This document shows positions 7,995-40,923 of a DNA stretch of 42,854 nt, in pieces. The DNA is taken from assembly GCA_018813295.1 (NCBI GenBank), contig JAHJBZ010000067.1:1-42854 (forward strand). The letters are read 5' to 3'. The first letter of the stretch is position 1. The number at the start of each line of letters is the position of its first letter. Source of the DNA: Patescibacteria group bacterium (GTDB lineage Bacteria > Patescibacteriota > Gracilibacteria > UM-FILTER-43-11). The position numbers and the translations under genes are program-made. The notes beneath the pieces are model-generated. The model was not told where the DNA came from and ran no database searches. It saw only the letters and a list, made by a program, of their open reading frames with translations.

Positions 7995-8022
7995 TTGACA
8001 CAGAATCTCATAGTTGTATAAT
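7995..8022 (+). promoter_or_regulatory. Near-consensus sigma-70 promoter of the ParB-like paralogue operon
   Basis: TTGACA (7995-8000), a 16-base spacer and TATAAT (8017-8022). Transcription would begin near 8029, leaving a leader of about 15 bases before the ATG at 8044, with no Shine-Dalgarno sequence. The promoter decides the start: a TTG in the same frame at 8014 lies inside the promoter and cannot be used. Confidence 0.8.
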
Positions 8023-8043
8023 AGATACCTTTACCCTCCTCCC

Positions 8044-9893: not shown

Positions 9894-9900
9894 TAATAAT

Positions 9901-10728
9901 ATGAAACTACACAAAAGATACCCAAACATCGATTTTAAAGTTGGTCCGGATTTAGATGATATTGATTATACGGATTTTCATGAATGGAACCCGCTAGAAC
10001 AAGCTGATTTTTACGTCAGAATACTTGCGGCAGCAAAACAAAGGAAAAAATATTCCATTGATAAAACAGCTGAATCATTAAAAATGGATATTAAAACATT
10101 AAAAATTTTTAAACGTATTTGTACACTGCCGGATATAGGAAAAAAAGCATTAGCACTAGGCATACTAAGCAGAAGCCAGTTGCTGGCCATGTTCAGTACA
10201 CAAAAAATGAATGAAAGGATATTTGAAGAATTGCCAGATGATTTAAAGGAGGCAATCGCATCTTTTCGTAAAGAAATGGAGGAAGGGCTGGCAGAAAGAA
10301 GGTCTGATAAAAAGGAACAATCCCCTGCTCCCAAAGTAGAAGTAATTGCAGAAGCCATAACAATCGAAGAAGCCAGAGAAGTTTTTGATAATCCCGAAAG
10401 CACCAAAGAAGAAAGACTTGCGGCATTTATGAGGTTGCATCCTGCAAACAGAGCCAAGCTGTGCTATAAAACATCAAAACACCCTAAAGGCAGATTCTTT
10501 AAGGATAGAAGCGCTGGAAGATATGTTGGAATAGCAAAACTCACTGTTGCTAGATACAGAAGAGCATATGAAATCATCAATAGAAATCCCAAACTTAAGG
10601 AGGGCTTAAAGGCTGGAGACCCACATGCGGCATTATGGAAGGCAATCGCAAAACTGAGAGCTCCAGCACAAGAAAAAATACCAGAAAGAAGTTCTCAACT
10701 CATACACATACCACCAAGCTTTCGCTAA
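9901..10728 (+). CDS. ParB/KorB-like HTH protein, paralogue 3 of 4
   Basis: A 275-residue protein starting 7 bases after paralogue 2. It has MKLHKRYPNIDFKVGPD at the N-terminus, EWNPLEQADFYVRI, the HTH around YSIDKTAESLKMDIKTLKIF with TLPDIGKKALALGILS, a linker with KKEQSPAPKVE, and the second domain (VFDNPESTKEERLAAFMRLH, RAKLCYKTS, AGRYVGIAKLTVARYRRAYE, GDPHAALWKAI). The second domain is shorter than in paralogues 2 and 4 around the CxxTS segment. Cotranscription with its neighbours is clear from spacing. Confidence 0.8.
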   Translation: MKLHKRYPNIDFKVGPDLDDIDYTDFHEWNPLEQADFYVRILAAAKQRKKYSIDKTAESLKMDIKTLKIFKRICTLPDIGKKALALGILSRSQLLAMFSTQKMNERIFEELPDDLKEAIASFRKEMEEGLAERRSDKKEQSPAPKVEVIAEAITIEEAREVFDNPESTKEERLAAFMRLHPANRAKLCYKTSKHPKGRFFKDRSAGRYVGIAKLTVARYRRAYEIINRNPKLKEGLKAGDPHAALWKAIAKLRAPAQEKIPERSSQLIHIPPSFR

Positions 10729-10733
10729 AAAAT

Positions 10734-11597
10734 ATGAAATTAGAAGAAAAATTCCCCGGCATAGAAGTCTTAAAGCTTCCAATGGATCCGCCTGATGATT
10801 TCAGTGATTTTGAGAATTGGCATGATCTAGAAAAAGCAGAATTTTATGCCGCTGTGGCAAAAACAGCATTAGAAAATGGATATGAAAGAAAATGGATTTC
10901 AGATCTACTAAATATAGATCCATCAACATTGGCAAAATATAGACGTCTCTGTATACTTCCGCCCATAGCTAAAAAAGCATTAGTAGATGGAGTATTAAAG
11001 CGCCATCCTTTAATGGAATTATTTGAAGGAACATATTTGCGAAAAAAAATGTTTAAGAGTCTGCCATCTGAAATACTAAGAGCCGCTAAGGAATACCGAG
11101 AATGTGTAAGTAGACTGCCTAATGGTCAAGCTTTGGAATCGGAAATGAACCCAATGAAGCCTATATATCAAAATATAACAACAGAGAAGCCACCGAAAGA
11201 AATCTTCAACGATGAAAAAAGTACAGAAGATGAGCGAAACAGGGCATTTTTATCCCTGCACCCGGCAGAAAGGGCAAGGCTATGCTGTGAAACCTCAGAC
11301 TCTTTTGGCGGAGCAAGGATGTATAGCGATAATAAAACAGGGAAACGTTTTGGTATAAGTATAGATTTAGTAAGAAGATATCGAGGGGCACACAAATTAT
11401 TCGGAAAAAATCCGGAATTGGCAGAAAAATTAAAAAAAGGAGACCCTCATACAGAGGTGTTTAGGGCATTAAATAAAGCAAAAAAGGCAAATAAATCAAC
11501 GCCGCTAACAACGAACGGACTAATAGCTGATGATGATCTGCCGGACATCCCTCAGGATGTAATCGCAAGATTGCGACAGATAGGTGGAATAAAATAA
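10734..11597 (+). CDS. ParB/KorB-like HTH protein, paralogue 4 of 4
   Basis: The frame is open from 10635, but the family start MKLEEKFPGIEVLKLP is at 10734, 5 bases after the stop of paralogue 3, giving 287 residues. ENWHDLEKAEFY replaces WNPLE, followed by the HTH (NGYERKWISDLLNIDPSTL, ILPPIAKKALVDGVLKR). The second domain has IFNDEKSTEDERNRAFLSLH, RARLCCETS, TGKRFGISIDLVRRYRGAH and GDPHTEVFRALNKA. The four genes share plan and order but differ a lot in sequence, which suggests old duplications kept for different targets rather than a recent amplification. Confidence 0.8.
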   Translation: MKLEEKFPGIEVLKLPMDPPDDFSDFENWHDLEKAEFYAAVAKTALENGYERKWISDLLNIDPSTLAKYRRLCILPPIAKKALVDGVLKRHPLMELFEGTYLRKKMFKSLPSEILRAAKEYRECVSRLPNGQALESEMNPMKPIYQNITTEKPPKEIFNDEKSTEDERNRAFLSLHPAERARLCCETSDSFGGARMYSDNKTGKRFGISIDLVRRYRGAHKLFGKNPELAEKLKKGDPHTEVFRALNKAKKANKSTPLTTNGLIADDDLPDIPQDVIARLRQIGGIK

Positions 11598-26269: not shown

Positions 26270-27529
26270 GTGGACAGTAGTTTAGTGCTCCTATTAATTC
26301 TAATAATTCTTTCAGGAGCCTTCTCCGGAGCAGAAATTTCGTTAACATCGCTTTCACCGGCAAAAGTAAAAACCCTTAAAGACGATAAACGCTTTGGCAG
26401 TAAGGCTGTATTTAAGTTAAGAAAAAACCCTGAAAAAATGCTAATTACCATATTAATTGGAAATAATTTAGTGAACATTCTGGCTACAGTTGTAGCGACA
26501 ATTTGGGGTATTCAGGTTTTTGGAAGTAATGCAGTCGGAATAGTAACCGGTGTCCTGACTTTCATAATCCTTGTTTTTGGTGAAATAACACCAAAAACCA
26601 TTGCCCAAAAATATGCAGGATCTTTTTCCAGATTAATAGCTTATCCACTTCTTGGACTAAAATTTATACTCTCGCCAGTAATTTGGCTCCTGCATAAACT
26701 CATACACGGCCTAATGAGGGCTTTAAATGTAAAAAATCCAATGCGCACCATGAGCGAAGAGGAATTGCTTGCTATGGTGGATATCGGCACCAAAGAAGGA
26801 GTAATTGAGGAACATGAACAAGAATTCATAGAAAACGTATTAGAATTTACCGATACAGCTGCTGAAGAAGTTATGACCCTTGAAAAAGATATGGAAGTTA
26901 TGGAAGCCTCAGCTACTATCAGAGAAGCGGCACACTACTTTGTGGAACACTCACATTCGCGTATACCTGTATATAAAGGCAATATTAATAACATTATAGG
27001 AATTGTTACTGTGCACGACATCTTACGCTTAATTCACGATACCAAAGGTACAAAAACGCTTGAAGACTTACATTATCAAAAAGTAATCATTGCCCCAAAA
27101 ACAAAATCAATAAGTAAATTATTCCGTGAATTCCAAAAAAGGCGCAAGCATATAGCCATAATAGTAGATGAACATGGAGAAACCGTCGGGCTAGTAACAC
27201 TTGAAGATATTCTTGAAGAAATTGTCGGTGATATCGCCGATGAACAAGATCTCGAAGAAAAATCTGTTCACAGTATAGGAAAAAACGAATGGGAAGTGGA
27301 TGGCAATGCAACAATTGAGGAGATAAACGAAGCTCTAAAAATAGAACTAGACTACCCTGAGCATCAAACAATTAGTCTTCTTATTTTAGAAAAACTCCAC
27401 GGATTCCCTAATGAAGGTGAAAAATTAACTTTTCAAAATCTCGCTATCCAAGTTAAAGAAATGGGTAAAAATAAAATTGAAAAAGTATTGATTTCAAAGA
27501 CGTCTGAACAAGCTAATGGTGAAGACTGA
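26270..27529 (+). CDS. CNNM (DUF21) / CBS / CorC_HlyC domain transporter-like protein
   Basis: The 419-residue protein starts at a GTG. It has an N-terminal CNNM membrane domain of about 180 residues (LLILIILSGAFSGAEISLTSLS; MLITILIGNNLVNILATVVATIWG; FGEITPKTIAQKYA), two CBS domains at about 195-330 (VMTLEKDMEVME, HSRIPVYKGNINNIIGIVTVHD, HIAIIVDEHGETVGLVTLED, the last ending DILEEIVGDI) and a C-terminal CorC_HlyC domain. Relatives include CorC and PaeA and handle magnesium or polyamine export. The next gene (DedA-UppP fusion) begins 5 bases later, so they are cotranscribed. Confidence 0.93.
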   Translation: MDSSLVLLLILIILSGAFSGAEISLTSLSPAKVKTLKDDKRFGSKAVFKLRKNPEKMLITILIGNNLVNILATVVATIWGIQVFGSNAVGIVTGVLTFIILVFGEITPKTIAQKYAGSFSRLIAYPLLGLKFILSPVIWLLHKLIHGLMRALNVKNPMRTMSEEELLAMVDIGTKEGVIEEHEQEFIENVLEFTDTAAEEVMTLEKDMEVMEASATIREAAHYFVEHSHSRIPVYKGNINNIIGIVTVHDILRLIHDTKGTKTLEDLHYQKVIIAPKTKSISKLFREFQKRRKHIAIIVDEHGETVGLVTLEDILEEIVGDIADEQDLEEKSVHSIGKNEWEVDGNATIEEINEALKIELDYPEHQTISLLILEKLHGFPNEGEKLTFQNLAIQVKEMGKNKIEKVLISKTSEQANGED

Positions 27530-27534
27530 TATTT

Positions 27535-28815
27535 ATGAATAATCTGATTGAACTAGCCAAAGAAATAATCGCAACCCACGGCTATGCCGGTATTTTTGCA
27601 CTTACCACTGCAGAGCAGTTTATTTTTCCCGTACCAGCAGATATTTTTATCACCCTTGGCACCTCAACCGGATTAATTTTCACAAAAGTTTTATGGATTA
27701 TATCCATAGCCGCAGTTGTAGGGTCGCTTATCGGATATTTTCTGGGCAGATTTATCGGCCACCCGATTATAAAATGGATGTTTGGACAGGAAAGACTTAA
27801 CCAATGCGAAGAGATTGTAAAGAAATGGGGCATGTGGGGTGTTATTATCGCTGGTCTCACGCCTATACCATTTAAGATCTTTACCTGGACAGCAGGCGCT
27901 TTTGAAATGCCGTTAGGCAGATATTTATTCGCAGTCACAGTCAGCAGAATACCAAGATATATATTCAGCGCTTACGCCGGAGTGCTTATCTTTAAAACCA
28001 AATTCTATGCAAGCACAGAGATGAGTGCACTGATTCTGGGAACATTCCAGGGAATTACTGAATTTGTTCCAATTTCCAGCTCTGGACATTTAGTGATTAT
28101 AGAGCACTTCCTCCATTTACCAGAAGAAATCACTGCACAAACACTCGCAACATTCGATATCTTCCTCCACGGAGGATCTTTGCTAGCCATTGTTATTTAT
28201 TTTTGGAAGGATTGGGTGCAGGTTATCAAAGACGCCTGGAAGATGGTCAGTAAATTCAAATTTGATTATAATAGCCTGGCATTTAAATTAGCCCTAGGTA
28301 CCATCCCAGCAATCATCGCAGGCCTTACCCTCGGAGATTACTTTACAGGCCCTCTGCGTAACCTAAATTCAATTGCAATAGCCTTTATAGTGCTCGCAGT
28401 AGTTTATTTTTATGTTGCATGGAAAGGCCAAGGAAATAGAAAAGAAAATGTAAGCCTAAAAAACTCAGTAATTATCGGTTGTGCCCAAGCCCTTGCACTA
28501 ATCCCCGGTGTCTCCCGCGCCGGCTCCACAATAGCCGCCGGTGTGCTAAGCGGACTAAAACGCGAAGCAGCCGCAAAATTCTCATTCATGCTCGGCGGAA
28601 TAGCAATCCTCGCCGCAAACGTCTACGCCCTAATGTCCATCGGATCCAACACAGTAGTACCAGGAATAAAATTCACCCTCCTCGGCTTCGGCGCATCATT
28701 CGTCTTCAGCTTCCTGGCCATCACATTTTTAATTAAATACCTTCAAAAACACACCATGCGAGCGTTTGGGATTTATTTGTTGTTAGTTGGTATTTTGATA
28801 TTGAGTTTTATGTAG
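27535..28815 (+). CDS. DedA (VTT) - undecaprenyl-diphosphatase (UppP/BacA) fusion protein
   Basis: The 426-residue membrane protein joins two families. Residues 1 to about 160 are a DedA/YqaA-like VTT domain (GIFALTTAEQFIFPVPADI, AAVVGSLIGYFLGRFIGHP, AGLTPIPFKIFTWTAGAFE, SRIPRYIFSAYAG). Residues about 163-426 are a full UppP: GTFQGITEFVPISSSGHLV carries the first catalytic motif and ALIPGVSRAGSTIAAG the second (PGxSRxGxT). UppP removes a phosphate from undecaprenyl pyrophosphate. DedA proteins (UptA in B. subtilis) were identified as translocases of undecaprenyl phosphate, so one chain could make and return the lipid carrier. The last codons lie inside a direct repeat found again beyond the Fic locus. 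Confidence 0.93.
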   Translation: MNNLIELAKEIIATHGYAGIFALTTAEQFIFPVPADIFITLGTSTGLIFTKVLWIISIAAVVGSLIGYFLGRFIGHPIIKWMFGQERLNQCEEIVKKWGMWGVIIAGLTPIPFKIFTWTAGAFEMPLGRYLFAVTVSRIPRYIFSAYAGVLIFKTKFYASTEMSALILGTFQGITEFVPISSSGHLVIIEHFLHLPEEITAQTLATFDIFLHGGSLLAIVIYFWKDWVQVIKDAWKMVSKFKFDYNSLAFKLALGTIPAIIAGLTLGDYFTGPLRNLNSIAIAFIVLAVVYFYVAWKGQGNRKENVSLKNSVIIGCAQALALIPGVSRAGSTIAAGVLSGLKREAAAKFSFMLGGIAILAANVYALMSIGSNTVVPGIKFTLLGFGASFVFSFLAITFLIKYLQKHTMRAFGIYLLLVGILILSFM

Positions 28816-28914: not shown

Positions 28915-29517
28915 CTATTTCCTCTTTAACCCCTTATAAATAACTGACCTCATTTTTGAACAGTCACCACTCATTCCGGCTATACAGGCTTCGATATACG
29001 CCTTTTTTGTTGTTTTGCCGAAGTCTATTAGCTCATAACCATTCTCAAGTGTCAGTAAATCCAAAAACAGGCGGATTGTCCTGCCGTTTCCTTCCCTAAA
29101 TGGATGGATAGCATTGAATTCACAGTGAATGGTAGCCAACTTTTCTGCGAAATCAGATTTATTAGTCGATTTTTTAGATAACAGCTTTTCCATAAGTTTA
29201 CTGAGGTCTTTCATCGCGCTTTCAATATGCTCCGCTTTACAGAAAAGCACACCGTCTTTTGAAATCTGCACGTTTCTTGTCTTGCCTGCCCAGGTGTACA
29301 GTGTGCCGAGGAAGTATTTATGTACATCAAAGATCAGATCAATGTCGAATTTCAGTTCACCTGTCTCCTGTTTTTCCAGAAAATGTTCATAGGTATCTGA
29401 AAGGAGCACCGTTTCCGTATCCTCCAGCGCCTTTTGGTCTTTGATTCCGAGTTTGTTTTTCAGGATTTCAGACGCGGCTTCATCACCCCCGACGTTATAC
29501 CGAGAAGCCTCTGCCAT
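28915..29517 (-). CDS. fic: Fic-domain AMP-transferase toxin
   Basis: The 200-residue protein carries the Fic motif HPFREGNGRTIRLFLD with the catalytic His, the Mg-binding acidic residue and the GNGR anion hole, preceded by YTWAGKTRNVQISKDGV (the beta-hairpin flap region). Such enzymes move AMP (or another nucleotide part) to Tyr, Ser or Thr hydroxyls of targets; small Fic toxins of this size attack gyrase and topoisomerase IV. It has no inhibitory helix of its own, which fits a class I Fic with a separate antitoxin, and that antitoxin gene overlaps its start. The DedA-UppP gene is convergent. Confidence 0.93.
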   Translation of the reverse strand: MAEASRYNVGGDEAASEILKNKLGIKDQKALEDTETVLLSDTYEHFLEKQETGELKFDIDLIFDVHKYFLGTLYTWAGKTRNVQISKDGVLFCKAEHIESAMKDLSKLMEKLLSKKSTNKSDFAEKLATIHCEFNAIHPFREGNGRTIRLFLDLLTLENGYELIDFGKTTKKAYIEACIAGMSGDCSKMRSVIYKGLKRK

Positions 29518-30879: not shown

Positions 30880-31971
30880 TTATTTATTAAATCTGATTTG
30901 CAAATTAAAATTCAGATATTTATTCCCGTCTTTTTCGTAGATTTCACCATAACCGTGCCTACTCGTACTTGGTGTGTCCAATCTTGTGTTGCTGTACAGA
31001 TATTCCTGAAATTCATTTCTGTTATACAGGTGATAACAAACAATTTCCCCGTTTTCTTTAACGATGATATAACCGCCATGAGCCTTGGTATATCCGTCCC
31101 ACTCTTTAGCTGGTGTCATTCCTAATGCAATTGAAACTAAAAATTCTTTTATTTTGTATTCCACATCCTCCTTACTGAAATCGAATTTGTCAGACAGAAT
31201 GTTATTTCCATCCAGATACTCCACAAGTTCTGATATTGTTCTGCCTTTACCCGCAAAAAATCCTAAAACTATTTCAGCAAGAACTTCCGGGAATAATGAA
31301 TCTATCTTTCTGATATTTTTTCTGAATATTTCGCTTTCAGGATTATCAAATTCTATTTCACCGCCCATTTCATAAATTTTATTTACTCTGTCCTGAATTT
31401 TGGATCTGGTATTAATGGAGTTTATTGTTTTAATATCAATATTTTCACCGATTATTTTATAACGTAAATTAGTTGCCCCTGAAGAATTTAGAAGGGTTGA
31501 CGGTGAACCTAACATTGATTTAATGCTGAAGCCGAGTTCGGGTTTTATTGTGGTTACAGGATCATGAATTTTTATTATTAAATCCTGTTTTGTGGCACTG
31601 GAAGCTTTTATCTGTGTACACTGAAGTTTTTCCATTATTTCCTTTCCGATTTGAATTGAAAAAGTTCTACCTTCATTACCTTTCATACCTTCAAAAATTT
31701 CATTTACTTTGGATTTAATTTCCGATGAATTAATTACTGCAATTTCTTTCTTGTCGGGAGTTTTAATATGAATTTTTTCATCATTTTTTGAAATATCATA
31801 AATTTTTGTCCCGATTTGAGTTTCTTCACGGATAATTTCCAGTACAAAATAAAAATTATCCTCTATTTTATTTAGATTTTCATCGGCGGAATAAATAATT
31901 TTGTCTGTAAGTATTTTTATGAAAGCGTAAAATTCGCTCCATTCTCCAATATTTCCTGTAATCATATTCAA
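30880..31971 (-). CDS. HpaII-family type II restriction endonuclease
   Basis: A 363-residue protein matching the HpaII family: TGNIGEWSEFYAFIKILTD at the N-terminus, SADENLNKIEDNFYFVLEII, and the central block LGFSIKSMLGSPSTLLNSSG followed by ATNLRYKIIG, with Asp/Lys residues near KQDLIIKIHD and GFSIKS. HpaII cuts CCGG. The methyltransferase gene immediately upstream is of the m5C type, as needed for CCGG protection, and Vsr precedes that. The two genes are 6 bases apart. Cutting at CCGG is inferred from the family. Confidence 0.85.
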   Translation of the reverse strand: MNMITGNIGEWSEFYAFIKILTDKIIYSADENLNKIEDNFYFVLEIIREETQIGTKIYDISKNDEKIHIKTPDKKEIAVINSSEIKSKVNEIFEGMKGNEGRTFSIQIGKEIMEKLQCTQIKASSATKQDLIIKIHDPVTTIKPELGFSIKSMLGSPSTLLNSSGATNLRYKIIGENIDIKTINSINTRSKIQDRVNKIYEMGGEIEFDNPESEIFRKNIRKIDSLFPEVLAEIVLGFFAGKGRTISELVEYLDGNNILSDKFDFSKEDVEYKIKEFLVSIALGMTPAKEWDGYTKAHGGYIIVKENGEIVCYHLYNRNEFQEYLYSNTRLDTPSTSRHGYGEIYEKDGNKYLNFNLQIRFNK

Positions 31972-31977
31972 ATTTTA

Positions 31978-32913
31978 TTAGGCAGCAATAGCTTGCGGTG
32001 TCGGTGCAAATTCCTTGATATTTGTTTTTAGCGATTTTTCTGGAATTTTTATTTCACTTCGGTTAAGTGATTTAATTATTTCTTTTCCGACTGCCTGTAT
32101 GGCATTTATTGCTACACTATTGCCAAGTTGTTTCATGGCTTCGACGTAACTCACAGGAAAAACAAAGTCTTCTGGAAATCCCTGCATTATTTTTCCTTCT
32201 TCGGGTGAAAGTCTGCGTACTTTTCCATTCACAAGATACGCATCCCAATTACGTCTATCATCAATTCTTGAGCCACGACCTCCGCAACGCAAGGTAAAGC
32301 CAACTTTTCTGCTGCAATCACCTCCCCATATATCCGACATTGTGGTTTTAAGTTTTATCGGCTTAGGAAATTCAAAATCAATGTTTTTATCTCTAAAACC
32401 GACCATAAACAAACGAGGTCTTAATTGCGGTAATCCGAAATCGGAAGCTTTTACTATTTTCCAATAAAAAGAATAACCGAGATCTTTTTCAATAACTCTT
32501 TTTATCACTTCAAAAGTTTTTCCGTTGTTATGGTTCAAAAGACCTCTTACATTTTCAAGGAAAATAGCTTTCGGTTTTTTTATGTCGATTATTTCCGCAA
32601 TTTTAAAGAAGAGTGTACCTCTTGTATCTTCAAACCCCTTCTTAAAACCCGCCTGACTAAATGGTTGGCAAGGAAAACCAGCTGTTAAAATATCAAAATC
32701 ATCTATTTCGTTTTCAATATCTTTTATTGAATTTATATCTCCGTAAAATTTCTTTTTCTTAAATAAATCGGGTGAGATTTTTTGAAAGTAGTGTTTATAT
32801 GTTTTTCTAGCGTGTTTATCCCATTCACATGCAAAAATACATTCAGCCCCCAGATTATGGAAAGCCAAGTGAAAACCTCCGATCCCCGCAAATAAATCAA
32901 TAAACTTATACAT
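31978..32913 (-). CDS. DNA (cytosine-5) methyltransferase, partner of the HpaII-type nuclease
   Basis: The 311-residue enzyme has the ordered C5-MTase motifs: I FIDLFAGIGGFHLAF, IV with the catalytic Cys in TAGFPCQPFSQAG, VI FLENVRGL, VIII QLRPRLFMVGF, IX RRLSPEEGKIMQGFP and X KQLGNSVAINAIQ. The target-recognition region between VIII and IX (about 195-245) is short. It protects the host site of the neighbouring nuclease. Methylcytosine raises C-to-T change, which explains the Vsr gene just upstream. Confidence 0.95.
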   Translation of the reverse strand: MYKFIDLFAGIGGFHLAFHNLGAECIFACEWDKHARKTYKHYFQKISPDLFKKKKFYGDINSIKDIENEIDDFDILTAGFPCQPFSQAGFKKGFEDTRGTLFFKIAEIIDIKKPKAIFLENVRGLLNHNNGKTFEVIKRVIEKDLGYSFYWKIVKASDFGLPQLRPRLFMVGFRDKNIDFEFPKPIKLKTTMSDIWGGDCSRKVGFTLRCGGRGSRIDDRRNWDAYLVNGKVRRLSPEEGKIMQGFPEDFVFPVSYVEAMKQLGNSVAINAIQAVGKEIIKSLNRSEIKIPEKSLKTNIKEFAPTPQAIAA

Positions 32914-32960
32914 GTGTTTATATTACATATTTGAACGCAATTAGTTTAGTGAACTTTTGT

Positions 32961-33365
32961 TTACCTGTCAACAAATTTTTTTATTTTTTTATAGCACTTT
33001 TCAATGTCTTCTTTGATTTCATGCTCCCAAAAACGAATAGGTTCGATATTCAGTTTCTTTAATTTAATATCATTATCCAAATCTCTTTCGACATTTGATC
33101 TTATTTTTGCAGACCAGAATTTTTTGTTGGTTTTCGGACCCTTGAAGCAAAGTGCGCACTTGTGCCAAAAACAGCCATCAATAAAAACCGCTACCTTTTT
33201 CGGTCCGAAAAACAAATCGGGTTTTCCTGGTAATTTTGCGTGTAATCGGTAACCCCTCAAACCTTTATTCCAAATGTATTGTCGAAAAATAATTTCAAGT
33301 TTGGTATTTTTACCTTTAACTTGCGACATGTTATAGCTACGTTGTTGCTTTGTGTGTCTGTCCAT
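32961..33365 (-). CDS. vsr: Very short patch repair endonuclease Vsr
   Basis: A 134-residue protein with the Vsr signature: MDRHTKQQRSYNMSQVKGKNT, the PGKPDLFFGPKKVAVFIDGC block (catalytic Asp, metal site) and CFWHKCALC with the zinc-binding His/Cys residues, ending in IEPIRFWEHEI. It nicks beside T in T:G mismatches that come from deaminated 5-methylcytosine. It is first of the Vsr, methyltransferase, nuclease order, which is repeated in unit C. Confidence 0.95.
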   Translation of the reverse strand: MDRHTKQQRSYNMSQVKGKNTKLEIIFRQYIWNKGLRGYRLHAKLPGKPDLFFGPKKVAVFIDGCFWHKCALCFKGPKTNKKFWSAKIRSNVERDLDNDIKLKKLNIEPIRFWEHEIKEDIEKCYKKIKKFVDR

Positions 33366-33392
33366 TGGCTAACAATTAAATAATTATTTCAT

Positions 33393-34133
33393 TTAATTGC
33401 ATAATTTTGACCTTGTGCACCAGTCGTTCATAGCTTCAATCCCTAGCTGTTCGGCAAGACAACTTGTCGCCTTCATTGATGATGGGCATAATTCAATTTT
33501 ACATTCAGAACCTTCCTTGCATGCATATTCAATTTCTATTGAATTAATCGAGGCACCACCGTATTTTCCTGTTTCAGTAAATGGTGCAACTAATAAGTAG
33601 GTAACTGTTGGCGGTAAGAGTTTCATTTTATCCCAAAATTTTATAAATTTTGTGGCGCCATTGGTTTCATATTCATCTTGTGTTGTGCCGAATTCCGTTA
33701 TGCTTAAAAGGTCAATTGTTACATTGATTGGGTTATTGCTATTAAATGCCCCTCCTTTTTCTATTGTCTTTTTTACATCTAATCTATTTTTTGATTTGCG
33801 CACAGCATTAATAAGACCGCTTTCTTGCCCGAAATTGAATGTTAAAAATCTGTATCCTTCACCAACTGTTTCACCTCTAATATTGATTTTTGCCCAAATA
33901 AATTCGCCACCAATTGTTAATCTATTTGCTTCTGATAAGTAGTTATATCCGTAAGGATTTTCAGATGGAATGTATGACTTACTAAGAAGTTCTATTTTTT
34001 TAACCTCCAAAAGCTTATTTGTTTCAATATTGGCAGGTGGCGTATCAAAGGCAGGAGTTTCTATTTGTGAAGTTGGCTCAACTTTATCTTCAAAAATACC
34101 TGAAAATGTATTAATAAGTATGAAACCTAGCAC
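33393..34133 (-). CDS. Membrane-anchored or exported hypothetical protein with C-terminal Cys motifs
   Basis: With the GTG at 34131-34133 the protein has 246 residues, but the frame is open further upstream to about 34220 and its translation there (KSWLAKVIDILTILVGLVLG) completes a membrane helix that the GTG start would cut. No ATG, GTG or TTG exists in that extension; an ATT near 34211 is a candidate start. After the helix the protein is beta-rich and probably outside the cytosol. The end has Cys residues (YACKEGSECKIELCPSS, SCLAEQ, DWCTRSKLCN) that may form disulfides. Family unknown. It lies between the next membrane gene and vsr in unit A. Confidence 0.65.
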   Translation of the reverse strand: MLGFILINTFSGIFEDKVEPTSQIETPAFDTPPANIETNKLLEVKKIELLSKSYIPSENPYGYNYLSEANRLTIGGEFIWAKINIRGETVGEGYRFLTFNFGQESGLINAVRKSKNRLDVKKTIEKGGAFNSNNPINVTIDLLSITEFGTTQDEYETNGATKFIKFWDKMKLLPPTVTYLLVAPFTETGKYGGASINSIEIEYACKEGSECKIELCPSSMKATSCLAEQLGIEAMNDWCTRSKLCN

Positions 34134-34221
34134 AAGACCAACGAGAATTGTAAGAATATCAATAACTTTGGCAAGCCAACTCTTTTTTTGTTGCGTTTTT
34201 TCTTTATTAATATTTTCTTAA

Positions 34222-34581
34222 TTAGTTGTAATAAATATTTAATTTCTTAGTTTTTATTATTTTGTTTGCTAAGAATGCAAATATTGAAAAAATTAACCAT
34301 TTTATGAATAGTTTTAGGAGTTCTAACAGCAGAATATCCCGAGAAAAAATATCAAGCACTGGCTTGAAAAATAGTTTGTGAGAAAAGTCTCTGTAGTCAT
34401 CACCAAAAATAATAATACTTAAGAGAAAAAATGCACATAAAAACAATCCTTTCAGTTCTGCAGATCGGATTTCGGTTATTCCGTAAAGGAATGAAAAAGA
34501 AAATAGAATGCAACCTATAATAGCAACTATAAGTAAGCGTTTGCAGCTCCAAATCAAAATTTCATTTAGTCTTTTTTTCAT
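34222..34581 (-). CDS. Small integral membrane protein, 119 residues
   Basis: A basic N-terminus (MKKRLNEILIWSCKRLL) is followed by three to four hydrophobic segments (IVAIIGCILFSFSFLYGI, FLCAFFLLSIIIFG, FIKWLIFSIFAFLANKII). Not a family I know. It is the first gene of unit A in the direction of transcription, next to the gene for a membrane-anchored protein; the two may act together at the membrane. Confidence 0.7.
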   Translation of the reverse strand: MKKRLNEILIWSCKRLLIVAIIGCILFSFSFLYGITEIRSAELKGLFLCAFFLLSIIIFGDDYRDFSHKLFFKPVLDIFSRDILLLELLKLFIKWLIFSIFAFLANKIIKTKKLNIYYN

Positions 34582-34654
34582 TTCTTTTTATGAAAGGATA
34601 ACATAGATGAAGTATGAAAATCTATCAATCATTATAATTATTGTCAAATTATGT

Positions 34655-34722
34655 ATTGTTAAAAATGTTCTCAAGATATTCCTTTGTACGAACGGAGTGA
34701 GATATATGAAAAATGGGCAGTA
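34655..34722. repeat. Inverted repeat of unit A, right copy
   Basis: ATTGTTAAAAATGTTCTCAAGAT (34655-34677, quoted in two words: ATTGTTAAAAATG, TTCTCAAGAT) and TGAAAAATGGGCAGTA (34707-34722) are the reverse complement of the ends of 30147-30197. The copy ends 4 bases before the outer box of site 2. Confidence 0.85.
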
Positions 34723-34726
34723 TTTT

Positions 34727-34873
34727 GGCTAACGTTGCAGTTTATGCGATGTTGCTCAAATTCATTATACTTTTTGCGGAGCAACAATGAATTTGAGCAA
34801 TTTGGACGAAGTCCAATGGTACAATGGCTTGCAACGCAAACCATTGGCGCAGTCGTATAAACTGCTGTTGTAC
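34727..34873 (-). repeat. attC-like folded site 2
   Basis: Outer boxes are GGCTAAC (34727-34733) and GTTGTAC (34867-34873). The outer stem joins GCAGTTTATGCGA with TCGTATAAACTGC. Hairpin 1 has perfect 15-bp arms, TTGCTCAAATTCATT (34752) and AATGAATTTGAGCAA (34786). A small TTGGAC-GAA-GTCCAA hairpin (34802-34816) and CAATGGCTTGC/GCAAACCATTG (34823-34847) complete the fold. It lies 38 bases beyond the GNAT stop codon. Confidence 0.75.
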
Positions 34874-34877
34874 GATG

Positions 34878-34919
34878 TATCGAAAAGCATTGCGATAGCA
34901 ACAATCGTCATTTATTTTT
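34878..34919. repeat. Inverted repeat of unit B, left copy
   Basis: TATCGAAAAGCA (34878-34889) and AATCGTCATTTATTTTT (34903-34919) match the reverse complement of 35447-35492. The second block contains the GNAT stop codon. Confidence 0.8.
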
Positions 34920-35442
34920 TCGTGCGGTGAATTCTGTATTCAAGTATATGTTGCTTTTTACCGGACATATTCACTTCATCATATTCTCTTGCAATCTTTC
35001 CGCCTAAAAACTCTGGGATTCTTCTGCTCGGATAGTTTTCATCGACAACTGGATAAAGTAGATATTCATAATCTAAATTTTTATCTGCCCATTCTTTAAG
35101 TGCAATCATTGCCTCTTTACCATAGCTATTGCCATGGGCTGTTTTCTTTATCCAAATACCTAATTCTGGGGTTTTTCTATCAATATGATGAATTCCCGCA
35201 CAGCCTAAAAAATCTTTACCTTTCTTATCGAGTACGACGATCTGACAATTACTACCCTCTTCATTCTCTTTTATTGATGTTTCAATAAACTCGATCGTTT
35301 CCTCAATTTTTTCCGCTGGCTTGGGAAACATATGGGTTGTAATTTCTGTTGTAAACTCTCTGAAAATATCATCTTTGTATTCCAAAGTAATACCTTTTAG
35401 GTAAAGATTTTTAGTTTCAATGGTTATGTTTGAAGTATCCAT
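34912..35442 (-). CDS. GNAT family N-acetyltransferase (RimJ/RimL-like)
   Basis: With the ATG at 35440-35442 the protein has 176 residues (a TTG two codons earlier is less likely). It follows the RimJ/RimL plan: NITIETKNLYLKGITLEYKD, FLGCAGIHHIDRKTPELGIW, a diverged acetyl-CoA loop in KTAHGNSYGKEAMIALKEWA (in place of Q/RxxGxG/A), and YPVVDENYPSRRIPEFLGG. Substrate unknown: ribosomal protein N-termini, antibiotics or toxins are possible. GNAT genes are among the most frequent cargo of integron cassettes. Confidence 0.9.
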   Translation of the reverse strand: MDTSNITIETKNLYLKGITLEYKDDIFREFTTEITTHMFPKPAEKIEETIEFIETSIKENEEGSNCQIVVLDKKGKDFLGCAGIHHIDRKTPELGIWIKKTAHGNSYGKEAMIALKEWADKNLDYEYLLYPVVDENYPSRRIPEFLGGKIAREYDEVNMSGKKQHILEYRIHRTKK

Positions 35443-35446
35443 AAAC

Positions 35447-35492
35447 AAAAATAAATGGCGATTTAATTTTTCTCAAAAATTGCTTTTCGATA
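35447..35492. repeat. Inverted repeat of unit B, right copy
   Basis: AAAAATAAATGGCGATT (35447-35463) and TGCTTTTCGATA (35481-35492) are the complement of the left copy. The latter ends 4 bases before the outer box of site 3. Confidence 0.8.
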
Positions 35493-35496
35493 TGTT

Positions 35497-35615
35497 GTAC
35501 AACGTATGCGGTATATGCGACGTTTGTCATTGGTATAATATGCCGGAGGCTCACCAATGGCAAATGTGGGCGTTTGCCGTGCTGAGGCAATAAGCCGTAT
35601 ATAGCGCTGTTATAC
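35497..35615 (-). repeat. attC-like folded site 3
   Basis: Outer boxes are GTACAAC (35497-35503) and GTTATAC (35609-35615). The outer stem joins GCGGTATATGCG with CCGTATATAGCGC with bulges. Hairpin 1 is TTTGTCATTGGT (35523) with ACCAATGGCAAA; hairpin 2 is TTGCC-GTGCTGA-GGCAA, with a loop close to the GAGCCGA of sites 1 and 4. Confidence 0.75.
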
Positions 35616-35690
35616 GCCCCGAGCCCGGCGTGTTATAATATCCAAAACACGACGGGCGAGAGCGCAGCGGGGCGTGACCGGAGGGAACGA
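35616..35690. other. GC-rich structured stretch between site 3 and the unit C inverted repeat
   Basis: CGCCCC (35615-35620) pairs with GGGGCG (about 35669-35674) around an inner hairpin CCCGGCGTGTT/AACACGACGGG-like. It contains GAGAGCGCAGCG (35658-35669), the same 12 bases found between site 1 and the unit A repeat (30122-30133); AAGCGCAGCG occurs beyond site 4. No ORF. Confidence 0.65.
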
Positions 35691-35691
35691 G

Positions 35692-35739
35692 TTCAAAAAA
35701 TATTTTTCCATCTAAATAGACCTTTTGATAGGCTTTTAC
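35692..35739. repeat. Inverted repeat of unit C, left copy
   Basis: TTCAAAAAATATTTTTCC (35692-35709) and CTTTTGATAGGCTTTTAC (35722-35739) are exact 18-base complements of 42058-42075 and 42004-42021; the middle is shorter here. Confidence 0.85.
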
Positions 35740-35794
35740 TTAAACAAAAAATCAACAACCAAAATAAAAAATCTGTTTTGAAACGAGTTGGCGT

Positions 35795-36874
35795 TTAAAA
35801 TTTTTCGAAAATATGTTTGTTGTGATATTCCAGAAATTCAGGTTCTGGTGCAAATTTTTCAGGCAAATAAATCTTTTCATTTTCATATCTTCTAAAGAAA
35901 TTTGTTATTACCTCATCCTTATATCTTTCAAATGTTGCTTTAGAGATTTTAAGCCTAAAATCGGGTGTTACAGTTATCAATCCATTATCAAAGGCTTTAT
36001 CATGAAGTGCATTAAGACTTAGTCCATTTCGTGGGTTTAGTCTGTTTTTCTTGTCCTTACTCCAAGGGATAATATGACTGGCAATAAGTAGCTGTGGGAT
36101 TCTAATGCCAGTAATACAGCAAGTATTATTGTATGCACTTAGTACAAACTTTCTAAATAGAGACTGATTAATTCTTGTCTTCATCAGGGTTGATCTTTCA
36201 CTACCTTCTGGCAGATCAGTAACGTCTATCTCTGCGACCTGATCAATGCTTTGATGTGTCATATTTGCTATTAGATTTTCACTTTCATATGTTAGTTCTT
36301 CCCAGTTTCCATTAAACTCATCCCAAATTGCTTTATCTAGTTTACTTGCGTTAGTTAGACCACCGATGTTCCTTTTCTTTAATTCAGGGTCAAAACTACC
36401 GAAATTCCCAAGTTTCATAGCAACAGAGGATGGTGAACGTCCAATTATTTTTGCTGTTTCTATAACATTAGGGTTACCTGAAACAGCTTTGCTAAAGGGA
36501 ATTTTGCAATATAAGTTAAATGCGATGATGGTTTCTTCACGCGTCCAGTTCTTCGGTTTAGTTGAAAAAGGATTATTTACTTCATTCCAATTCTTTTTAT
36601 ATACCTGTCTGAAGCCTTCTTCTGCATTATTGATTTTCCACGCTGTGAATCCAATGCCTGGCACACCATCTTGGTTGATTACAAGAATTGTAAGCGGAGG
36701 CAGATCATTCTTTAGACAATAATCTTGTATAGGCTCAAGAATGCGACCTACTTGGCGAGCATGAACATCTCCAATCTTATCGCCTAATTCCTGATATCTT
36801 ATTTTACCTTTATCGTTGGCGACATCTGTGAGTATATCCCAGCATTTTTCTATTTGTTTGTTTTCTTTTTGCAT
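35795..36874 (-). CDS. HNH restriction endonuclease-like protein
   Basis: The 359-residue protein ends with an HNH domain (HNH_2 type): NNTCCITGIRIPQLLIASHI, IPWSKDKKNRLNPRNGLSLN, ALHDKAFDNGLITVTPDF. The first His is in ASHI, the Asn in NGLSLN and the last His in ALHDKAFD. The N-terminal region (KIRYQELGDKIGDVHARQVG, ILVINQDGVPGIGFTAW) looks like a winged helix or alkyltransferase-like DNA-reading fold, and the middle contains a SANT-like stretch (WTREETIIAFNLYCKIPF). It could be a restriction enzyme, perhaps directed at modified DNA. It follows the PD-(D/E)XK nuclease gene by 40 bases. Confidence 0.85.
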   Translation of the reverse strand: MQKENKQIEKCWDILTDVANDKGKIRYQELGDKIGDVHARQVGRILEPIQDYCLKNDLPPLTILVINQDGVPGIGFTAWKINNAEEGFRQVYKKNWNEVNNPFSTKPKNWTREETIIAFNLYCKIPFSKAVSGNPNVIETAKIIGRSPSSVAMKLGNFGSFDPELKKRNIGGLTNASKLDKAIWDEFNGNWEELTYESENLIANMTHQSIDQVAEIDVTDLPEGSERSTLMKTRINQSLFRKFVLSAYNNTCCITGIRIPQLLIASHIIPWSKDKKNRLNPRNGLSLNALHDKAFDNGLITVTPDFRLKISKATFERYKDEVITNFFRRYENEKIYLPEKFAPEPEFLEYHNKHIFEKF

Positions 36875-36914
36875 TTGTTAGGGATAAGGTTAATGGTGTG
36901 AAACGTCCGAGCTT

Positions 36915-37970
36915 CTATATATTTTCCGCTATTTCCTGAATTATTTCATCGGGCTGTCTGATTTTACCACTTTCAATAAGCTGATAAATCCTGTTTTTAG
37001 CAATAAACAGATTATTTCTTTTTAACTTTGGATCTCTGCCTAAAGTGGCCAGATTAAAAGAGTAAAATTTATCCTTTTTTAATTTAAAATTACCAAAAAC
37101 GTCATTGCCAATGCTTACATTAGACAGGCATTCGATATAAGTTTTTTTCTTTTTATAAATTAACTTAAAATTGCCTTTAACTTTAAATTTAGAAATATCT
37201 TCTTTTTCAGGATAAAGACTTTTTTCAATCTCAAGCTTCATTATTGAATCAAAATTCTTATATTCCTTAATTTTTAGAACATCTCTTCTGACTCCAGCCC
37301 GACTATAGAATGAAGTGGATTTTTTTTCATCAAACAATCTTGTTTCATACATATTCATACCTCTTTCAAATGCATATGCAAAATTTTCTAAATCCTCTGA
37401 TGAAATTATGAATTCTATTCTGCATTCAGCATTTAAGTCTGCAAACTTCTGAAAAATTGTGCTTTTATCCTGATTTTCGATTTCTTTCAGGAACATTCCG
37501 GTTAAATCGGTTGTTTTTGGGTTATTATTTATTGTTTCCGAATTAATTGAAGCATAAATCATATATATTTTATTGCTTCCTGCACTTCTTTTAATGGTGT
37601 TAAACTGCTCTTCTGTTAAACCTATCCAGCGGTCATTTTCAGAAGTGTTTTTTATCTCTACAAAAATTGCAGGCTCTCTTAAATTACCATTTTCCTCTAT
37701 ATGAATAATGTCCGGTTCATCCTTAACTTGTGCATTAGACTTAATATCAAAATCGAGCATATATTTTTTGTCACCATTAAGTTCTGTTAGTATTTTTTCA
37801 ATGCCGATTTCTGTTATTTTGCCTAATGTAAAGGCATCTAAGATGGCACCAAGTCCTCTGGGCTCACCGGTTGTTCTGCCTGTTGTATTTTTTGAGGGAT
37901 CAATATAGTAATTTGTTCCAAACTCAAAAACCCTTTTGAAGTCTTCAAGTGTAAGGCGATAATATTCCAT
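36915..37970 (-). CDS. PD-(D/E)XK-type restriction endonuclease, partner of the second methyltransferase
   Basis: A 351-residue protein without a family I can name. The likely active site is DEPDIIHIEE followed by REPAIFVEIKNTSEND, i.e. D, about 17 residues, ExK with the Asp in EPDI and EIK, typical for type II nucleases. The C-terminal third (LKIKEYKNFDSIMKLE to the end) is basic. It starts 10 bases after the C5-methyltransferase gene, parallel to the HpaII-type operon, so it is the nuclease of that modification enzyme. The recognition site is unknown. Confidence 0.75.
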   Translation of the reverse strand: MEYYRLTLEDFKRVFEFGTNYYIDPSKNTTGRTTGEPRGLGAILDAFTLGKITEIGIEKILTELNGDKKYMLDFDIKSNAQVKDEPDIIHIEENGNLREPAIFVEIKNTSENDRWIGLTEEQFNTIKRSAGSNKIYMIYASINSETINNNPKTTDLTGMFLKEIENQDKSTIFQKFADLNAECRIEFIISSEDLENFAYAFERGMNMYETRLFDEKKSTSFYSRAGVRRDVLKIKEYKNFDSIMKLEIEKSLYPEKEDISKFKVKGNFKLIYKKKKTYIECLSNVSIGNDVFGNFKLKKDKFYSFNLATLGRDPKLKRNNLFIAKNRIYQLIESGKIRQPDEIIQEIAENI

Positions 37971-37980
37971 TTCTTAATTT

Positions 37981-38994
37981 TTAAGATGCAAGTGCCATTC
38001 TTGATTCATTCGTTTCGAAGATATGATTAATTTTTATCACATCTTTTGGCTTATTCAGAATAGCCTTTTTCATCTCTTTTGCAATAGCTTCGATAACTGT
38101 TGTTGTTACTGAATTGCCTATTTGCTTATATAAACGTGAATCAGCAATGTTGGATGGCAACTTATAATCTGCCGGGTATCCCTGAAATCTAAGGCATTCC
38201 TGCGGTGTCAGTTTTCTTATACCTTTTCTATCATTGATTATCGGTACATTGTGACCGCCCATACCCATATTTGCTGTAAGTGTCGGGCAGACATTGCTTT
38301 TATTCTCCCTGACATAAATTCTGCGCCACTGATAAACTGTATCGGTTTTGGTTATTTTACCGTCAAGTTTTTCGAATAGGGGTTTATCGTTGTAGTAATA
38401 TTTTTTATCCACATTACCGTTCAGCAAATCTTCTATTTTTACTGTGCGTGTAATTTTTTCAGGAAATTTAAAATTGTCAGTTATTTCTTTGTCTTTAAAA
38501 CCGACAATATAAATTCTTTCACGGGTTTGCGGAACATTGCCGTAATCCATACTATTGAGAACTTTATGCTTAATGTGATAGCCGAGCCTTTCGAGGGTTT
38601 CGATTATCACTTTAAATGTATTTCCGTTATCATGTGCTTCAAGATTTTTTACGTTTTCCAGTAAAAATCCTTTTGGCTGTTTGACCTTAAGTATGCGGGC
38701 AATATCCAAAAACAAATTTCCTCTGCCTTTTTTGTCCTCAAAACCATGCCTATAACCTGCAACTGAAAAAGCCTGGCATGGGAAACCGCCTAAAAGATAA
38801 TCAAAATCCGGTAAATCGTAAGCATTAACCTTTGTAATATCGGCAACATCCAGCTTAACATCCTTAAAATTAAGATCGTAAGTCGCCTTACAATATTCAT
38901 CAAAGTCGTTAGCGTATACAGTGGTAAAACCGGCTTTTTCAAAGCCCAGTCTTATACCCCCAATGCCTGCAAATAAATCAATTGTTCTGAGCAT
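37981..38994 (-). CDS. DNA (cytosine-5) methyltransferase, second R-M system
   Basis: A 337-residue enzyme with motif I TIDLFAGIGGIRLGFEKAG, motif IV LGGFPCQAFSVAGYRHGFED (catalytic Cys), motif VI FLLENVKNLEAHDNGNT, motif VIII PQTRERIYIVGF, motif IX LTPQECLRFQGYPADY and motif X YKQIGNSVTTTVIEA. The target-recognition region (about 190-250) is unlike that of the first methyltransferase, so the sites differ. Its start overlaps the end of vsr by 17 bases, which means coupled translation. Confidence 0.95.
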   Translation of the reverse strand: MLRTIDLFAGIGGIRLGFEKAGFTTVYANDFDEYCKATYDLNFKDVKLDVADITKVNAYDLPDFDYLLGGFPCQAFSVAGYRHGFEDKKGRGNLFLDIARILKVKQPKGFLLENVKNLEAHDNGNTFKVIIETLERLGYHIKHKVLNSMDYGNVPQTRERIYIVGFKDKEITDNFKFPEKITRTVKIEDLLNGNVDKKYYYNDKPLFEKLDGKITKTDTVYQWRRIYVRENKSNVCPTLTANMGMGGHNVPIINDRKGIRKLTPQECLRFQGYPADYKLPSNIADSRLYKQIGNSVTTTVIEAIAKEMKKAILNKPKDVIKINHIFETNESRMALAS

Positions 38995-39397
38995 TTTGTT
39001 TGATTAGTTTTTTTAGTTTGTTAAAGCACTTATTGATATCATTTTTTATTTCATGCTCCCAGAATCTTAACACTTTTATTCCATTTTTCCCTAGGAAAAT
39101 ATCTGTTTCTAAATCCCTTATTACGTTATTTTTAATCTTATGATTCCAGTATTTTTTATTGCTTTTCGGCTTTTTAAAGCATACAGGACATTTGTGCCAA
39201 AAGCATCCATCTATGAATACTGCAATTTTTTTAGGGCCGAAGTATAAATCAGGTTTACCCCGTATTTTAGAGTGAATTCTATATCCTTTTATTCCTTTTG
39301 ACCATAAAAATTGTCTGAATTCAATTTCCGGTTTAGTATTTTTCGCTCTTATACGAGACATGTTATAACTCCGCTGTGCTTTACTGTGAGTATCCAT
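38978..39397 (-). CDS. vsr: Very short patch repair endonuclease Vsr, second copy
   Basis: A 139-residue paralogue of the Vsr in unit A: MDTHSKAQRSYNMSRIRAKNT, RGKPDLYFGPKKIAVFIDGC and CFWHKCPVCFKKPKSNKKYW, VLRFWEHEIK near the end. All catalytic and zinc-site residues are kept. It is the first gene of the Vsr, methyltransferase, nuclease operon. The two Vsr proteins are clearly similar, yet the nucleases of the two operons are not, so the operons are not simple duplicates. Confidence 0.95.
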   Translation of the reverse strand: MDTHSKAQRSYNMSRIRAKNTKPEIEFRQFLWSKGIKGYRIHSKIRGKPDLYFGPKKIAVFIDGCFWHKCPVCFKKPKSNKKYWNHKIKNNVIRDLETDIFLGKNGIKVLRFWEHEIKNDINKCFNKLKKLIKQNAQNN

Positions 39398-39510: not shown

Positions 39511-40923
39511 TTATTTAAACTGGCTACTTATTTCAATTTTTTTAATAAGAAAATCAACAACATCTAGTCTGTAATGATTATTTCCGATACTTCTGATTAT
39601 ATCAATAATTAGTTTGGCGCGATCTTTTTCTTCTGAAGATGATTTTTCCGATTCGTATGTTTTGCTATATTTGCCAATTGGGTCGTAACGTTTTGCTTGT
39701 CTTTTTTTAAATGTCATTCCTATTTCTAGATGTGCCGTAATCCAAGCGCCATAATGATTATCATCTAAAAAATTTGAATGAGTGTGTTTTTGTATATTTT
39801 TTAATACATTCTCAGGTGCCATGCTCTTTTCCCGAATTTTGTTGTATGTATCAATGTCTATTTTTCTAAGTATTGAAAGAAAACATAGTAAACCTGGGAA
39901 AAAATGTTGATTTTCAGCTGTGGTGTATAAAACTATTATAATTTGTGAAATTATTTGCTCAATTGTTCTTAAGCTGAGATTTAATTCTGAAAACCACTGT
40001 ATTAATACTTGTTCCATAGTTGGATAATCGTCATGAAATTCGCTTTGTTTCTTTCTTTCTGAAAACCACTGATCTAGTTGATGTCTTTTCAATGTAGCGC
40101 GAACAAAAGTTTCAATATCTGGTTCAGGCAGGTGATAATCAAGATCAATAAATCTATCTAAATAGCCTCTTACATCCATACCTTGCCCATAAACAGATTT
40201 AATTGAATGACCAATTTGTTTCATATCTATGCCAAGAACAAAAACAATATTATTTATCGAAAATAAGTGTTTTGCTCTTTCGAGAACTTGAATTGCATAA
40301 TCAGGTCTACATCTATCTAATTCATCTATTATAAAAATTAGCGGACCTTTATTGTCACTTTTCAGTTCTGTAGCAAATTCTTCTAGTGAAGTTTTAAAGT
40401 TTGCAAGTGATTCTTTTGTTTTTTCATATTCATCAAATTGCTCTTTCACTAAATCTTCTGCAATTGAGGAAAGGGTTTCTTCTGTGCCTTGGTTCAAATC
40501 GATAACACCTTGTGTGGCAATTTTAACAAATGCAGGTATTGCTTTTTTTGCCAATTTGTAAGCATTCTCCTTTACTTTTTTTAACAACTTTCTTGTTTTG
40601 TCCTTTTGCTTACTGTTAATGTTAAAACCGTTTAAACCAATTTCAATTTCCTTTATTAGCGCAACAAGGGCATCATCTTTAAAATCTGTTTCCCATGCAT
40701 TAAATTGTATTGTAAAAAAACCATTTTGAAGCAGTGAATATCGCCACATCTTGAGAAAAGTAGATTTTCCAGAACCCCAACATGAATCTACGGCAATAAC
40801 ATAGGGTTCTTCTAATTTTGAAATAAACTGAGTTAAAAAGTCTGAACTTTCTTTTCTTTTAAGTGCATCGTTTTCAAATGGTGCTTCGGGTTTAATGTCT
40901 AATAATGGTAATTTTATATACAT
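39511..40923 (-). CDS. KAP family P-loop NTPase
   Basis: A 470-residue KAP NTPase: Walker A VDSCWGSGKSTFLKMWRYSL at about 45-60, IQFNAWETDFKDDALVALI, Walker B FIIDELDRCRPDYAIQVLER near 205-225 and VFVLGIDMKQIGHSIKSVYG, followed by DVRGYLDRFIDLDYHLPEP. The usual KAP transmembrane insertion between Walker A and B is replaced by a helical region (about 95-190) with a weakly hydrophobic part. Bacterial KAP proteins are often in defence and mobile islands. It follows the PD-(D/E)XK gene and precedes vsr, but with gaps of 165 and 113 bases. Confidence 0.9.
   Translation of the reverse strand: MYIKLPLLDIKPEAPFENDALKRKESSDFLTQFISKLEEPYVIAVDSCWGSGKSTFLKMWRYSLLQNGFFTIQFNAWETDFKDDALVALIKEIEIGLNGFNINSKQKDKTRKLLKKVKENAYKLAKKAIPAFVKIATQGVIDLNQGTEETLSSIAEDLVKEQFDEYEKTKESLANFKTSLEEFATELKSDNKGPLIFIIDELDRCRPDYAIQVLERAKHLFSINNIVFVLGIDMKQIGHSIKSVYGQGMDVRGYLDRFIDLDYHLPEPDIETFVRATLKRHQLDQWFSERKKQSEFHDDYPTMEQVLIQWFSELNLSLRTIEQIISQIIIVLYTTAENQHFFPGLLCFLSILRKIDIDTYNKIREKSMAPENVLKNIQKHTHSNFLDDNHYGAWITAHLEIGMTFKKRQAKRYDPIGKYSKTYESEKSSSEEKDRAKLIIDIIRSIGNNHYRLDVVDFLIKKIEISSQFK

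Follow-up and report, generated by a model that had tools for sequence, protein, structure and literature searches.

Does one protein of a reduced bacterial genome both regenerate the lipid carrier of cell-wall synthesis and bring it back across the membrane? The question is raised by a gene in the window, by which we mean the whole stretch of 42,854 nucleotides that was analysed (contig JAHJBZ010000067.1, Patescibacteria group). A first-pass annotation, made from the sequence alone, had described the gene as a DedA-UppP fusion that joins dephosphorylation of undecaprenyl pyrophosphate (C55-PP) with return of undecaprenyl phosphate (C55-P, UndP) in a single chain. It had also placed the gene in a reduced genome, and the source is indeed a CPR genome of 1.53 Mb (draft, 90% complete).

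A complete DedA domain precedes a complete UppP in one reading frame

The gene is a single ORF on the plus strand, starting with ATG 5 nt past the stop of the upstream gene and encoding 426 amino acids. A Pfam search detected VTT_dom at aa 39-150 (E 1.4e-17, 64.7 bits against a cut-off of 33.9) and BacA/UppP (PF02673) at aa 165-421, the latter matching profile positions 1-257 of 257 (E 6.6e-72, 242.7 bits against a cut-off of 33.4). The fusion protein is a complete VTT/DedA domain (PF09335) N-terminal to a complete UppP/BacA, as the first-pass annotation had proposed, and the same architecture recurs in the family.

27535-28815, plus strand: DedA-UppP fusion gene, 426 aa (ORF, Pfam, relatives' proteins)
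27535-28008, plus strand: DedA/VTT half, aa 1-158, YqaA-like, with two re-entrant hairpins and two membrane-spanning helices (Pfam, tree, model)
27994-28023, plus strand: linker, aa 154-163, predicted outside; M163 lies close to the start of stand-alone UppP proteins (model, alignment)
28021-28812, plus strand: UppP/BacA half, aa 163-426, full length (Pfam, Foldseek, alignment)

We also considered a separate UppP product initiated at the internal M163; we do not argue for it, as M163 is not conserved in three orthologues.

The fusion is conserved in one family

Of the 18 genomes in this family, 17 proved to carry the full-length fusion in a protein search of the relatives taken together with the source genome; they represent 11 of 12 genera. 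The fusions of the 16 relatives align end to end with 48-72% identity, and no split fusion was seen in any family genome. In the eighteenth genome (G006; 89% complete, 190 contigs) neither the DedA half nor the UppP half was found. The fusions form a single clade, both in the DedA tree (support 97/99) and in the UppP tree (100/99). A misassembled join near position 28020, raised in the first-pass annotation as a possible source of error, is ruled out by the identical full-length architecture in 17 of the 18 family genomes.

The survey of CPR genomes proposed at that stage located the fusion in its own family, and the matches listed from 333 CPR genomes included no N-terminal DedA fusion from outside it. 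Among 72,556 plasmids searched none covers 80% of the query, and the fusion was not found in the viral contigs searched. The single contig scan for the fusion returned close relatives as its sole matches.

The UppP half retains the catalytic residues

Both catalytic motifs of UppP, which had been recognised at the outset, are in place:

28048-28092, plus strand: UppP motif 1, QGITEFVPISSSGHL, aa 172-186; E176, S182 and H185 correspond to E. coli E21, S27 and H30 (alignment)
28504-28533, plus strand: UppP motif 2, PGVSRAGSTI, aa 324-333; S327 and R328 correspond to E. coli S173 and R174 (alignment)

In an alignment of 16 UppP halves these five residues do not vary. The position of E. coli E17 is taken by Q172, a substitution permitted by the (E/Q)xxxE motif and likewise invariant in the 16 halves. 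Foldseek comparison of the structural model (see below) gave the BacA crystal structures 5oon and 6fmt as best matches (E about 3e-10, target TM 0.79-0.83). The score with the NCBIfam equivalog TIGR00753 was 197.5 bits, below the cut-off of 217.5. Given the divergence of CPR sequences and the intact catalytic residues, membership of UppP stands at the level of Pfam, whereas naming at the equivalog level does not. In sum, this half shares with E. coli UppP/BacA (5oon, 6cb2) the full-length domain, the fold and the catalytic residues, and differs from it in Q172, in the 160 DedA residues that precede it and in scoring under the strict NCBIfam equivalog cut-offs.

The DedA half is predicted to form two re-entrant hairpins with both ends outside

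An AlphaFold2 model was built from 17 fusion sequences (mean pLDDT 86, pTM 0.66). Its helices 17-27/35-44 and 85-106/110-122 make up two re-entrant hairpins (aa 17-44 and 85-122), so that the AlphaFold check suggested by the first-pass annotation found the VTT re-entrant fold intact; from the helix list of the model we read membrane-spanning helices at 49-83 and 127-154. A fold search with the full model was dominated by UppP matches, and a sequence search of the DedA half against solved structures gave no significant match. The loop 74-100 contains on average 5.2 lysines and arginines, whereas the N-terminal segment has 0.8 and the linker 1.2. Under the positive-inside rule, such a distribution predicts that the DedA half begins and ends outside, in agreement with the UppP N terminus, which is outside as well (PMC5852022).

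The positions within this half that matter for its possible activity are the following:

27583-27666, plus strand: re-entrant hairpin 1, aa 17-44; invariant E27, acidic residue 36 (D/E) (alignment, model)
27859-27876, plus strand: tip of re-entrant hairpin 2, TPIPFK, aa 109-114, ending in K114 (alignment, model)
27946-27960, plus strand: RIPRY, aa 138-142; R138 invariant, R141 at the presumed UptA W146 position (alignment; PMC11474028)

The PIPFK (aa 110-114) and RIPRY (aa 138-142) motifs noticed in the first reading were thus both located.

The DedA half is of the YqaA-like type and carries a basic set of its own

In a tree of 60 DedA domains, a branch with support 97/89 separates the fusions, together with E. 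coli YqaA and proteins that carry the annotation 'YqaA family', from COG0586 and COG0398. Support within the YqaA-side grouping is 89/80, and E. coli YqaA forms a long branch. The score of the DedA half with the NCBIfam model of UptA was 25.6 against a cut-off of 300. An UptA-type identity of this half is ruled out by the tree and the residues, and the warning given at the start, that the half is YqaA-like and its transport role uncertain, was right.

In a profile alignment with COG0586 (99.5% probability), E27 and D36 fall on E39 and D51 of YghB. With E27 invariant and residue 36 D or E in 17 of 17 fusions, the acidic pair of UptA/COG0586 is present. The basic pair is absent from its place, R130 and R136 of YghB falling on G107 and F113; K114 follows the second of these positions. 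R141 falls on YghB W164, which by a constant offset that we infer should correspond to UptA W146; binding of C55-P is reduced when this residue, among others, is mutated (PMC11474028). From this alignment, the basic half of the UptA signature may be supplied by other residues, namely K114, R138 and R141. Residue 114 is K in 14 of the 17 fusions, R in one (G004), I in one (G007) and Q in one (G014); R138 is invariant, and R141 is kept in 16. The loss of key DedA residues in homologues, against which the first-pass annotation had set its reading, is seen at K114, non-basic in 2 of 17, and not at R138 or, with one exception, R141.

The proteins of COG1238 were described by Todor et al. as unlikely to flip UndP, since hairpin 2 is nearly without basic residues, and other substrates were proposed for them; 99% of them are single-domain, and the E. 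coli DedA proteins that sustain viability alone all belong to COG0586, none being YqaA (PMC10127716). The fusions depart from this description in two respects: they are joined to UppP, and 15 of 17 have K or R at position 114. With YqaA/COG1238 they share the side of the tree, the TPIP[YFL]K motif, whose lysine is present in the YqaA-family proteins of Azospirillum and Xanthomonas that we examined, and an RxxR-like basic pair after hairpin 2 (RxxR in Azospirillum and Xanthomonas), whereas E. coli YqaA has D at the position of K114. With UptA/COG0586 (B. subtilis UptA, E. coli YghB and YqjA) they share the VTT domain, the two re-entrant hairpins and the acidic residues of hairpin 1, and differ in the replacement of the arginine pair, their basic residues being K114, R138 and R141.

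The YqaA-like side of the tree, the missing UptA arginine pair and the substrates proposed by Todor et al. (PMC10127716) would all agree with a DedA half that moves another lipid as a phospholipid scramblase or flippase and whose fusion to UppP serves another end than carrier return, for instance the balancing of outer-leaflet lipids near the cell-wall machinery. We regard this explanation as unlikely; it is the most serious competitor to carrier return, because the arginines are missing and all the life-sustaining DedA proteins of E. coli are COG0586.

dedA and uppP are associated beyond the fusion

A YqaA-like dedA also immediately precedes uppP in three further families of the class, represented by G027, G018 and G031; a short gap separates the two genes in G027, and a 4-nt ATGA stop/start overlap joins them in G018 and G031. 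These operons look like forerunners of the fusion. In other CPR genomes, a dedA of the COG0586 (UptA) type was found beside uppP in 9 of 74 loci with flanks of about 1.5-2 kb. The 74 loci (L046-L071 and L083-L130) were chosen without regard to neighbours, and we estimate the chance expectation at about 1%, from about three VTT genes per thousand genes. A further genome (G315, L072:479-2014, minus strand) encodes the reverse fusion in a 512-aa frame, with UppP at aa 56-305 followed by a COG0586-like DedA at aa 356-472, both over the Pfam cut-off; it is independent of the family fusion. Thus the specific tie to the C55-PP phosphatase, through the fusion and the ATGA-coupled operons, and the occurrence of a COG0586 dedA at the same place beside uppP elsewhere speak against the movement of another lipid by the DedA half.

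We noticed in addition that in G299 (L078:1058-2521, plus strand) a COG0586-type dedA and uppP lie in frame, 3 nt apart, with one TAA between them, a single stop from fusion.

Overlapping genes make an accidental fusion easy, and the fusion could have arisen by chance from an old operon, its halves working independently and the tether being of no use. This we think very improbable, as the intact fusion has been kept over 11 genera at identities down to 48%, although such retention does not by itself demonstrate that the tether is useful. On the reading that we prefer, one fusion event most likely occurred, in the ancestor of one Peregrinibacteria family, and its source would have been a translationally coupled dedA-uppP operon.

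Several genomes have no other known carrier flippase

The source genome encodes MurG and FtsW (contig C15), indicating that the organism makes lipid II and so needs a carrier cycle; complete Peribacteria genomes encode the whole of peptidoglycan synthesis (PMC4736985). No PAP2 and no DUF368 protein was found in the source genome. It contains four VTT domains including that of the fusion, the other three being a COG0398-like protein (C58), a protein nearest to COG0586 that lacks the arginine pair (C26) and a divergent one (C38). The presence of these three counts against the carrier-recycling reading; the other VTT proteins examined in the family, for their part, are also without the UptA arginine pair. 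Family-wide, DUF368 is present in 2 of 18 genomes and PAP2 in 2 of 18. In five genomes (G004, G008, G009, G016 and G017; drafts, 86-95% complete) no VTT protein other than the fusion was found, and no DUF368. Similarly, in G018 (99% complete) and G025, the YqaA-like dedA encodes the only VTT protein, with no DUF368. That no other known UndP flippase was found in the five fusion genomes again argues against a different lipid substrate, and it is this result, together with the association of dedA with uppP, that leads us to favour carrier return. In these five genomes a carrier-recycling system of great simplicity may be at hand, one gene encoding the only UppP and the only DedA found, with no DUF368 or PAP2 found.

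K114 is lost in exactly the two family genomes that have DUF368 (G007 and G014). These are sisters in the UppP tree (100/97), and the link between K114 and DUF368 thus represents one lineage. Its loss there would fit relaxed constraint on a phosphate-binding residue in the presence of a second carrier flippase. Outside the family but within the class, YqaA-like proteins without the lysine occur in G032 (N), G480 (N) and G038 (T), genomes that have neither COG0586 nor DUF368, which shows that K114 is no universal mark and weakens the argument; the RxxR signature persists in all three. A comparison of evolutionary rates gave no clear excess for the DedA half in the DUF368 lineage (residuals -1.6 and -2.8; range -7.4 to +7.7).

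A proposed carrier-recycling protein

We propose that the fusion is probably bifunctional and recycles the lipid carrier. Cell-wall polymerisation leaves undecaprenyl pyrophosphate behind, and the UppP half, which opens towards the outer face, would cleave a phosphate from it. The undecaprenyl phosphate so formed would be bound by the two re-entrant hairpins of the tethered YqaA-like DedA half, which would carry it back to the inner face, probably at the expense of the proton motive force. In this scheme E27 and D36 form the putative proton site, and binding of the phosphate, in UptA a role of two arginines, would fall to K114, R138 and R141. The link between dephosphorylation and return that the first-pass annotation had drawn is borne out by the fusion and the operon data, whereas UptA-like flipping is not: by tree, scores and non-basic arginine positions the DedA half is not UptA-like, so that for its flipping of UndP we argue by inference. 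The wider reading, that a branch of YqaA-like (COG1238) DedA proteins are UndP flippases using K114, R138 and R141, here permanently joined to the phosphatase that makes their substrate, has in our judgement an even chance of being correct.

The BacA structures led their authors to propose that this protein is itself a flippase (PMC5852022, PMC5861054). UppP might accordingly flip C55-P through its inverted-repeat fold, with the DedA half aiding dimerisation, proton coupling or regulation. We consider this improbable, given that genetics assigns the return step to DedA and DUF368 proteins (PMC9876793, PMC12826051) and that the DedA half has retained its putative proton-site residues, for which a mere scaffold would have no use.

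Single-chain proteins that combine a C55-PP phosphatase and a member of a UndP flippase family are already on record, as DUF368-BacA, DUF368-PAP2, PAP2-DUF368 and DedA-PAP2 fusions (Sit et al. 2022, PMC9876793; Todor et al. 2023, PMC10127716). The fusion described here differs from them in pairing UppP/BacA with a DedA of the YqaA-like, not the COG0586, type. In the main texts covered we found no mention of a DedA-BacA pairing, though one may be listed in the supplementary tables of Sit et al. The Rosetta-stone support claimed for the pathway in the first-pass annotation is sound as to the link, on which the operon data agree, and is not new in itself, since the DUF368-BacA, DUF368-PAP2 and DedA-PAP2 fusions were known. 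The new element is the partner, a YqaA-like DedA, and its value lies in the case that it makes for part of COG1238: it offers a testable function for an uncharacterised DedA subfamily, and the fused protein allows one to ask whether C55-P passes directly from phosphatase to flippase.

Genes around the fusion

The gene directly upstream of the fusion is shared by most of the fusion loci:

26270-27529, plus strand: CNNM/CBS/CorC_HlyC-type membrane protein gene (same neighbour in 15 of 17 fusion loci)

Since UppP depends on a divalent cation, a connection of this neighbour to UppP via Mg/Ca handling is conceivable.

Further genes of the window were recorded as follows. Four consecutive related genes at 8014-11597 (plus strand), each of about 275-330 aa, appear to be a tandem family; one was scanned and gave no Pfam match. 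Convergent with the fusion gene, at 28915-29517 (minus strand), is a gene for a Fic/DOC family protein. Among the fusion loci a homologue of it was found in the source locus alone, and many relatives have a holA-like gene there. The region 30880-39397 (minus strand) holds two restriction-type modules, each with a C5-cytosine methyltransferase and a Vsr endonuclease. The first module also has an HpaII-family restriction enzyme (374 bits). In the second, an HNH_2 protein (35795-36874) is found together with an unassigned protein (36915-37970). The modules are followed by a gene for a KAP-family P-loop protein at 39511-40923.
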